The notes beneath the pieces are model-generated. The model saw nothing but the letters and a program-made list of their open reading frames with translations. It was not told the DNA's origin and did not search any database. From positions 1,550,001 to 1,614,000 of the forward strand of contig NZ_JRHC01000001.1 in assembly GCF_000949475.1 (NCBI RefSeq): a stretch of 64,000 bases of DNA. Reading direction: 5' to 3'. The stretch is from Draconibacterium sediminis. Its GTDB lineage: Bacteria; Bacteroidota; Bacteroidia; Bacteroidales; Prolixibacteraceae. Within the stretch, counting starts at the first letter, position 1; every line of letters starts with the position of its first letter. Below are positions 4,163-27,120 of the stretch, piece by piece. Position numbers and translations under genes: made by a program.

Positions 4163-4238
4163 GACTCAGTAGCTCAGTTGGTAGAGCACATCCCTTTTAA
4201 GGATGGGGTCCTGGGTTCGAGCCCCAGCTGAGTCACCA
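4163..4238 (+). tRNA. tRNA-Lys (TTT), copy 1
   Basis: The cloverleaf is complete: acceptor arms GACTCAG (4163-4169) and CTGAGTC (4228-4234), a D-arm with AGCTCAGTTGGTAGAGC, and anticodon stem CATCC/GGATG around the loop CTTTTAA with anticodon TTT at 4196-4198. The T-arm carries GGTTCGAGCC. An encoded CCA occupies 4236-4238. It is one of two identical copies. Confidence 0.97.
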
Positions 4239-4613: not shown

Positions 4614-4689
4614 GACTCAGTAGCTCAGTTGGTAGAGCACATCCCTTTTAAGGATGGGGTCCTGGGTTCGAGCCCCAGCTGAGTCACCA
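4614..4689 (+). tRNA. tRNA-Lys (TTT), copy 2
   Basis: The tRNA body is identical to copy 1: acceptor GACTCAG/CTGAGTC, anticodon loop CTTTTAA with anticodon TTT, and an encoded CCA at 4687-4689. It has its own promoter and terminator, so both copies should be expressed. Confidence 0.97.
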
Positions 4690-26797: not shown

Positions 26798-26922
26798 AAA
26801 AAATGCCCTCGCGGGCAAAAAGGAAGGGGAAAGCTCTATGGACGCTTTTTGAAGATGATTGATAATTTACAAACCCCTAAACACAAAACCAATCATAAAT
26901 ACAGAAGTCGCTTTCCCCTTTT
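26798..26922 (-). ncRNA. Candidate structured small RNA or leader element with its own terminator
   Basis: On the minus strand the transcript would contain a long closing stem formed by AAGGGGAAAGC and GCTTTCCCCTT (plus-strand 26910-26920 and 26824-26834, 11 perfect pairs). A GAC/GTC extension and an internal loop follow, then a second stem ATGATTG/CAATCAT (26890-26896 with 26855-26861). Just downstream a TGCCC/GGGCA hairpin (26804-26817) precedes six Ts in the minus direction, an intrinsic terminator with no T-run on the plus strand. TATATTTG on the minus strand (26966-26973) is a plausible -7 box. It could be a free small RNA of about 160 nucleotides or an attenuator for the propeller gene 330 bases on. 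Confidence 0.5.
26804..26817 (-). terminator. Intrinsic terminator of the candidate small RNA
   Basis: TGCCC TCGC GGGCA hairpin. On the minus strand it is followed by TTTTTTA (complement of 26797-26803). On the plus strand it is followed by purines, so the polarity is minus. Confidence 0.65.
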
Positions 26923-26965
26923 AAGTTTTACTTATTGAAAATAAAACCAACCATTAAATCAATAG

Positions 26966-26973
26966 CAAATATA
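26966..26973 (-). promoter_or_regulatory. Possible -7 box for the candidate small RNA
   Basis: The minus-strand reading TATATTTG matches TAnnTTTG. A convincing TTTG -33 element is not seen 19-21 bases upstream, so this is tentative. Confidence 0.35.
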
Positions 26974-27120
26974 AGGAAATGATTAAAGCAGAAAAGCTTT
27001 GTAAAACATAAAATCACTTCTGTGTATATAAAAAAGGTTGGTTTTCCCAAAATGGGAAAAACTATGTTTATTTGGGAAATCACTGCTAAAGCAATAATAA
27101 TGCAGTATTGATTATTGAAT

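Follow-up and report, generated by a model that had tools for sequence, protein, structure and literature searches.

A dispersed multicopy family of structured RNAs in Prolixibacteraceae, with predicted enhancer-dependent sigma-54 promoters upstream of many copies

The Qrr RNAs of Vibrio are controlled by LuxO and sigma-54 and carry a LuxO dyad, and sponge RNAs of the CsrB/RsmZ type titrate an RNA-binding protein through unpaired motifs. 6S RNA, in turn, can exist in more than one copy. To our knowledge, regulatory RNA in Bacteroidota has been studied mainly in gut Bacteroides. For the FopS/GibS small RNA (sRNA) family of Bacteroides, multicopy paralogues have been described, with 14 FopS copies in B. 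thetaiotaomicron, in which a single-stranded 5' seed region is followed by a terminator and which have canonical sigma-ABfr promoters (PMC11697453). Here, we analyze a locus in a stretch of 64,000 nucleotides from Draconibacterium sediminis, referred to below as the window. The locus probably encodes a stand-alone noncoding RNA of approximately 160 nt on the minus strand, with a core of approximately 105 nt, that is the rlmD-linked member of a multicopy family, several copies of which would be governed by one NtrC-type activator and sigma-54 and would act in trans in a Qrr-like manner.

The original prediction, namely, that this region contains an unannotated structured RNA with a promoter-like box and a terminator of its own, holds, since the entire block is kept in 39 orthologues. 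All features given below are on the minus strand. The small RNA gene spans positions 26798 to 26960, with the predicted transcript running from approximately 26960 to the end of the T run, and the core, which is the unit found in multiple copies, covers 26814 to 26922 (134-bit match to model R1). The perfect 11-bp closing stem that had been noticed, P1, is seen in both the sequence and the minus-strand fold (5' arm, 26910 to 26920; 3' arm, 26824 to 26834). It is extended by the proposed GAC/GTC pairing, P2, at 26907 to 26909 (5' arm) and 26841 to 26843 (3' arm). The nested stem of 26855 to 26861 with 26890 to 26896 is likewise present, and the predicted fold lengthens it to 9 bp, forming the apical stem P3 (5' arm, 26888 to 26896; 3' arm, 26855 to 26863). 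Two motifs are near-invariant: AGGGGUUUGUAA (26867 to 26878), which is conserved among the orthologues and is a candidate pairing or protein-binding site, and AAAAAGCGUCC (26840 to 26850), a possible pseudoknot partner of GGGGUUU. Fold and motif counts define a leader hairpin (GGUUUUAUU...; 26924 to 26948), which is present in the rlmD-linked copies of the window's genus and near genera and overlaps a second occurrence of the GGUUGGUUUU-like motif of the core. The predicted intrinsic terminator (26798 to 26817) consists, as had been stated, of a GC hairpin within 26804 to 26817 and six Ts at 26798 to 26803, and a second T-rich tract lies directly 3' of P1. The promoter-like box is TATATTTG at 26966 to 26973; in the 39 orthologues, its fixed letters, TA..TTTG, are 100% conserved and the middle two letters 95%, and it corresponds to TAnnTTTG, the sigma-70-type -7 box of Bacteroidota. 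Folding energy was less informative. The z score of the minus strand was -2.26 for 165 nt and -2.16 for the 103-nt core, whereas the plus strand of the region scored lower (-3.90). As the minus-strand values are only modest, energy alone settles neither the reality of the structure nor its strand, and comparison between sequences was needed.

The 39 orthologues beside rlmD delimit the gene. Mean identity to the window, calculated per 20 bases, is 0.53 to 0.74 upstream of the box, rises to 0.91 to 1.00 between the box region and the end of P1, is 0.86 and then 0.68 over the terminator, and drops past the terminator to 0.46 and then to 0.19 to 0.41. Within the core, positions 26907 to 26848 are close to 100% identical. 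This footprint fits a minus-strand transcript from approximately 26960 to 26798, and the region is almost certainly a real RNA gene. The gene neighborhood bears on the alternative that the RNA acts in cis, as a leader or attenuator of the gene that follows it. In the window, this is a propeller gene, and the position of the RNA upstream of it on the same strand speaks for such a role. rlmD is upstream and divergent at all 49 rlmD-linked loci examined; downstream of these copies, an ABC-F gene was detected in 30 cases, a propeller gene in 4, and neither in 15, with the loci differing in the distance covered. A conserved linkage to a controlled gene, as an attenuator or riboswitch would have, was thus found for neither gene. 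Copies not linked to rlmD sit among differing genes in both orientations. Because the propeller gene is so rarely downstream and the paralogues lie among other genes, a leader function of the RNA for the propeller gene is improbable, and its own terminator also argues against a cis-acting leader, an explanation that we consider extremely improbable. Of the two roles originally put forward, regulatory RNA or propeller attenuator, the former is favored by the occurrence of the RNA in several copies per genome, many of them behind a shared promoter arrangement.

Covariation was analyzed in 92 copies (88 distinct) aligned to model R1. These copies come from 87 of 221 loci; the copies omitted from the alignment were mostly near-identical ones. 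For model R1, 18 of the 27 rows in a first alignment were used; rows L035, L047, and L050 are among the 18 and were left out only from a trial alignment that was not used. The first MAFFT alignment, in which some rows were misplaced in the 3' arm and the core offers no variation, led RNAalifold to a different fold and was replaced by the covariance-model alignment. A test for compensatory changes in the closing stem had been proposed, and it came out clearly: all nine modeled P1 pairs change on both sides among the 92 copies, and 98.7% of the cells are paired. The covariation score of the whole structure was 0.259, compared with a mean of 0.121 for shuffled alignments, a control that ignores the kinship of the copies, and none of 500 shuffles scored as high; controls with slid partners, which take kinship into account, gave 0.028 to 0.073. 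The alignment was fitted to model R1, which somewhat favors the modeled structure; however, the alternation of GGGGAAAGC/GCTTTCCCC with GGGTAGAAC/GTTCTACCC is visible in the raw sequences. The apical stem P3 is consistent (95.3% of cells paired), with no pair that changes on both sides, and P2 is weak (82.3%). The motifs GGGUUU and AAAGCGUC are nearly invariant across the copies. A pseudoknot between GGGGUUU and AAAGCGUCC could form and, given the near-invariance of both motifs, lies beyond the reach of covariation. In 79 of 91 copies (L202, a fragment, was left out), the 16 bases that follow P1 include a T-rich tract, with 7 or more Ts in the best 10.

The genome of D. sediminis contains four copies according to a DNA search, and model R1 returned the same four. 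Among 140 genomes of Prolixibacteraceae, we found 127 copies in 51, with 1 to 6 copies each, of which at least two are fragments; in terms of genera, the RNA occurs in 6 of the 23 represented by good genomes. In an order-wide sample, it was detected in 4 of 295 genomes, all belonging to the window's family, and in a class-wide sample, the broader model R2 matched 4 of 395 genomes, with only that of D. sediminis giving a strong match. The other three matches (E values of 0.013 to 0.021) were treated as chance. A pattern scan of named genomes yielded 59 stretches, mostly with Draconibacterium, Maribellus, Mariniphaga, Tangfeifania, or Prolixibacteraceae in their titles; the four genera are all assigned to Prolixibacteraceae in the NCBI taxonomy, and some of the 59 stretches come from metagenome-assembled genomes labeled Bacteroidales, Bacteroidetes, Bacteroidota, and, in one case, Chlorobiota. 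Judging from these searches, the sequences look like a dispersed multicopy RNA family found only in Prolixibacteraceae, and it appears to be undescribed: our literature searches, as far as accessible text goes, turned up neither this RNA nor a sigma-54-dependent multicopy sRNA family in Bacteroidota.

The statement that no known RNA consensus is matched was likewise confirmed. Searches of the window region and 11 loci with Rfam 15 gave no match to the RNA at either curated or permissive thresholds, leaving only sub-threshold matches elsewhere in the loci and four with low scores inside the gap. The same searches weigh on a second alternative, namely, that the RNA is of the 6S type and binds the housekeeping RNA polymerase. 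The layout, in which a loop separates a closing stem from an apical stem, is similar, as had been remarked for 6S-type and riboswitch RNAs, and the presence of several copies is compatible with it. However, the 6S-Flavo model (RF01685) misses the RNA; its two matches in the genome, of 43.6 and 30.2 bits, are both away from the RNA and below the cutoff of 85, and a 6S RNA would not be expected in as many as six copies with sigma-54-like promoters. The suggested likeness is thus not supported, and a 6S function is very improbable. The better of the two matches (contig C15 of this genome, positions 495517 to 495655; E value of 4e-5), although sub-threshold, is a candidate for the true 6S RNA of the genome. 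Elsewhere in the window, two tRNA genes with an equal model score of 71.9 bits are found 451 bases apart, at 4163 to 4235 and 4614 to 4686.

Near-identical cores in differing flanks are also what a non-autonomous mobile repeat (a MITE or a recombination site) would show if it spread as DNA and the structure served a recombinase, and some ABC-F-linked copies are followed, at a distance of approximately 400 bp, by integrase-like genes. Several data oppose this explanation: (i) the constant adjacency of rlmD in the 49 rlmD-type loci examined, (ii) the conservation of promoter spacing and T-rich tracts, (iii) a scan of viral contigs with the core pattern, which gave 0 matches, and (iv) the lack of any same-strand repeat of at least 12 bases of the RNA 3' end in the approximately 19 to 59 kb downstream in four integrase-linked cases. 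We hence regard a mobile repeat as highly unlikely. The downstream genes concerned are a tyrosine integrase identified by Pfam (L036, 6854 to 8083) and, as judged by eye, a second, different integrase-like protein at L199, L201, and L204.

We then turn to the regions upstream of the copies. The sigma-54 consensus is given as TGGCAC-N5-7-TTGCT (PMC12316311). With a score matrix that was written by hand from the consensus after some of the sequences had been seen, sigma-54-like sites reached a score of 13 or more for 35 of the 92 copies and for 20 of the 46 upstream clusters (110 nt upstream). The corresponding rates were 1.7% for dinucleotide shuffles and 1.3% for 5,000 low-GC windows, in which the RNA flanks were left unmasked. 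A dyad, TTCCCA-N3-TGGGAA, was present with at most one mismatch in 29 copies and 16 clusters versus 1.0% of 4,000 control windows; these windows, like the former, were taken from the fetched loci, and some RNA copies in them were unmasked, which can only raise the control rate. The dyad came to notice in orthologues of the window copy before it was tried on the paralogues, and its spacing serves as the independent check. With one copy per cluster, up to two mismatches in the dyad, and a box score of at least 12, the dyad TTCCCA-N3-TGRGAA starts 68 to 71 bp upstream of the -24 TGG in 23 of the 24 clusters that have both motifs (37 of 39 when counted by copies), whereas the distance from the box to the start of the RNA model varies from 23 to 74 in the same clusters. 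An enhancer-binding protein that acts on the sigma-54 polymerase would impose just such a constant distance. In sequence terms, a common enhancer plus sigma-54 promoter (-24/-12 box) is present before about half of the upstream clusters, and many paralogues are very likely under sigma-54/activator control. The genome of D. sediminis encodes a single RpoN and 8 strong enhancer-binding ATPase domains, 12 being above the cutoff. The other 22 clusters lack both motifs together at these thresholds, and one group of copies has a common GTAACTTGT element instead. By eye, GTAACTT-like letters were seen approximately 35 to 50 nt upstream of the stem in L036, L184, L188, L190, L198 to L201, L203, and L204; these copies are without a good sigma-54 box and possibly represent a third promoter class.

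The window copy has the dyad, presumed to be an upstream activator site, as a perfect match, TTCCCATTTTGGGAA, at 27044 to 27058 on the minus strand, centered at approximately -91 from the predicted start; it is conserved among the orthologues and also found upstream of paralogous copies. In the aligned set, the dyad is kept (at most one mismatch) in all 11 rlmD-linked copies of the window's genus and near genera, and all 11 have TAnnTTTG in place of the sigma-54 box. In genera g2 and g5, by contrast, ten rlmD-linked copies examined (L045, L046, L047, L050, L051, L152, L158, and L162 to L164) have sigma-54-like sites scoring 11.7 to 15.2. The promoter class thus appears to have been exchanged at the rlmD-linked locus between genera, in either direction.

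We subsequently searched for the dyad and box combined. This pattern occurs at 40 places in 33 of the 140 family genomes, compared with 3 for the reversed pattern, and 21 of the 40 are directly upstream of an RNA copy. The genome of D. sediminis has no exact match, its own RNA copies included, and among the sites inspected there for other genes with dyad and sigma-54 box, only an RNA copy was convincing. Four places (L315, L316, L317, and L338) are in three genera in which the RNA was not found. The regions following them share AGGTTGAAGTTAG and other blocks and look noncoding by eye over approximately 300 nt (L315, from 1501 on the plus strand; L316 and L317, minus strand, below approximately 1583; L338, from 1144 on the plus strand); they may represent a second RNA family driven by the same activator. 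Judged by eye, most of the remaining 15 places look coding, and at least L328 could precede a gene. On the basis of the four promoters in genera without the RNA, we tentatively propose, as a possibility short of a probability, a dedicated enhancer-binding protein of Prolixibacteraceae with an almost RNA-only regulon, which would read TTCCCA-N3-TGRGAA and drive, via sigma-54, the RNA copies and, in sister genera that lack them, a different and apparently unrelated noncoding RNA. If true, the enhancer circuit would persist while one RNA output could be exchanged for another. A perfect TTCCCATATTGGGAA dyad was also observed at L258 (1501 to 1515), with no sigma-54 box scoring 10.5 or more at the expected spacing.

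Only 4 of the 92 copies contain, inside the RNA, an ATG frame that is closed and 15 codons or longer. A 9-codon frame starting with ATG or TTG is intact in 57 copies, 41 of them identical (MIGFVFRGL), and is shortened, shifted, or without a start in the other 35, so that no small open reading frame is conserved across the 92 copies; a subset may make a tiny peptide.

As to function, we infer the following sequence of events. One NtrC-type enhancer-binding protein, answering a signal, would turn on several copies at once, and the rlmD-linked copy of the window's genus, with its dyad and sigma-70-type box, would provide basal output. The closed stem P1 would present the nearly invariant core, which would act in trans; mRNAs are its most likely targets, as they are for the Qrr RNAs, and an RNA-binding protein is the alternative. 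We have good, if incomplete, confidence in trans action, and mRNA pairing is the more likely route. The other route, a variant of the favored explanation that differs in the last step, is a protein-titrating sponge with CsrB/RsmZ-like logic, in which the near-invariant GGUUUU and AGGGUUUGUA would bind the protein and the copies would raise the dose. In its favor are the near-invariance of the whole core, beyond a short seed, and the lack of an excess in a genome search with 12-mers for the complement of the conserved loop, which gave 46 sites and 46 in the control, 4 of the former being the RNA copies themselves. In two groups of copies, moreover, core motifs recur in the leader (AGGGTTTGTA in 10 copies and GGTTGGTTTT in 11). 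Each of these repeats is nevertheless confined to a single one of the 46 upstream clusters, and an RNA carries only one or two motif copies; we rate the sponge as rather unlikely. The leader repeats (26924 to 26960 in the window; L035 and relatives) suggest in themselves that the core motifs are functional units. In copies that are convergent with a GLAA-B/beta-helix gene, a piece similar to CTTCAAAAAGCGTC recurs approximately 40 to 120 nt beyond the RNA (near 3151 in L191, 3160 in L153, 3213 in L170, and 3146 in both L206 and L208). With at most one mismatch, it is found in 8 distinct contexts, besides one unmasked RNA copy, versus 3 for the reversed motif. Its other strand is complementary to the RNA core, and the 3' end of the GLAA-B/beta-helix mRNA could thus be a target, or the piece a relic copy.

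As far as the literature accessible to our search shows, a fixed enhancer/sigma-54 promoter that drives a multicopy, covarying RNA family would make this the first circuit of its kind in the phylum. It would open several issues to test, including its signal and activator, the reason for several copies, and how, at the rlmD-linked copy, some genera came to have sigma-54-like control and others a sigma-70-type box beside the same dyad.

Comparison with the known systems can be summarized as follows. (i) With the FopS family the RNA shares the existence of multicopy paralogous sRNAs in Bacteroidota. It is set apart from FopS by its covarying closing stem, by the sigma-54-like promoters of many copies, and by its lack of an Rfam match, and neither fold nor covariation gives the FopS arrangement of a single-stranded 5' seed and terminator hairpin. 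(ii) A long closing stem with an interrupted interior is reminiscent of 6S RNA, from which it differs in the absence of a model match, in its multiple copies, and in the enhancer-type promoters of many of these. (iii) Possible protein titration by conserved unpaired motifs recalls CsrB/RsmZ, although the motif copies per RNA are few. (iv) The closest parallel is Qrr of Vibrio, in the sense of a class of function, not of homology. Phylum, sequence, and fold are different, a long P1 stem closes the RNA here, and one copy has a sigma-70-type box. Both systems, however, have several near-identical structured sRNAs per genome, with some genomes here having one only, and sigma-54 promoters preceded by the dyad of an activator of the NtrC family, which are here predicted from sequence in 24 of the 46 clusters, the window copy not being among them.
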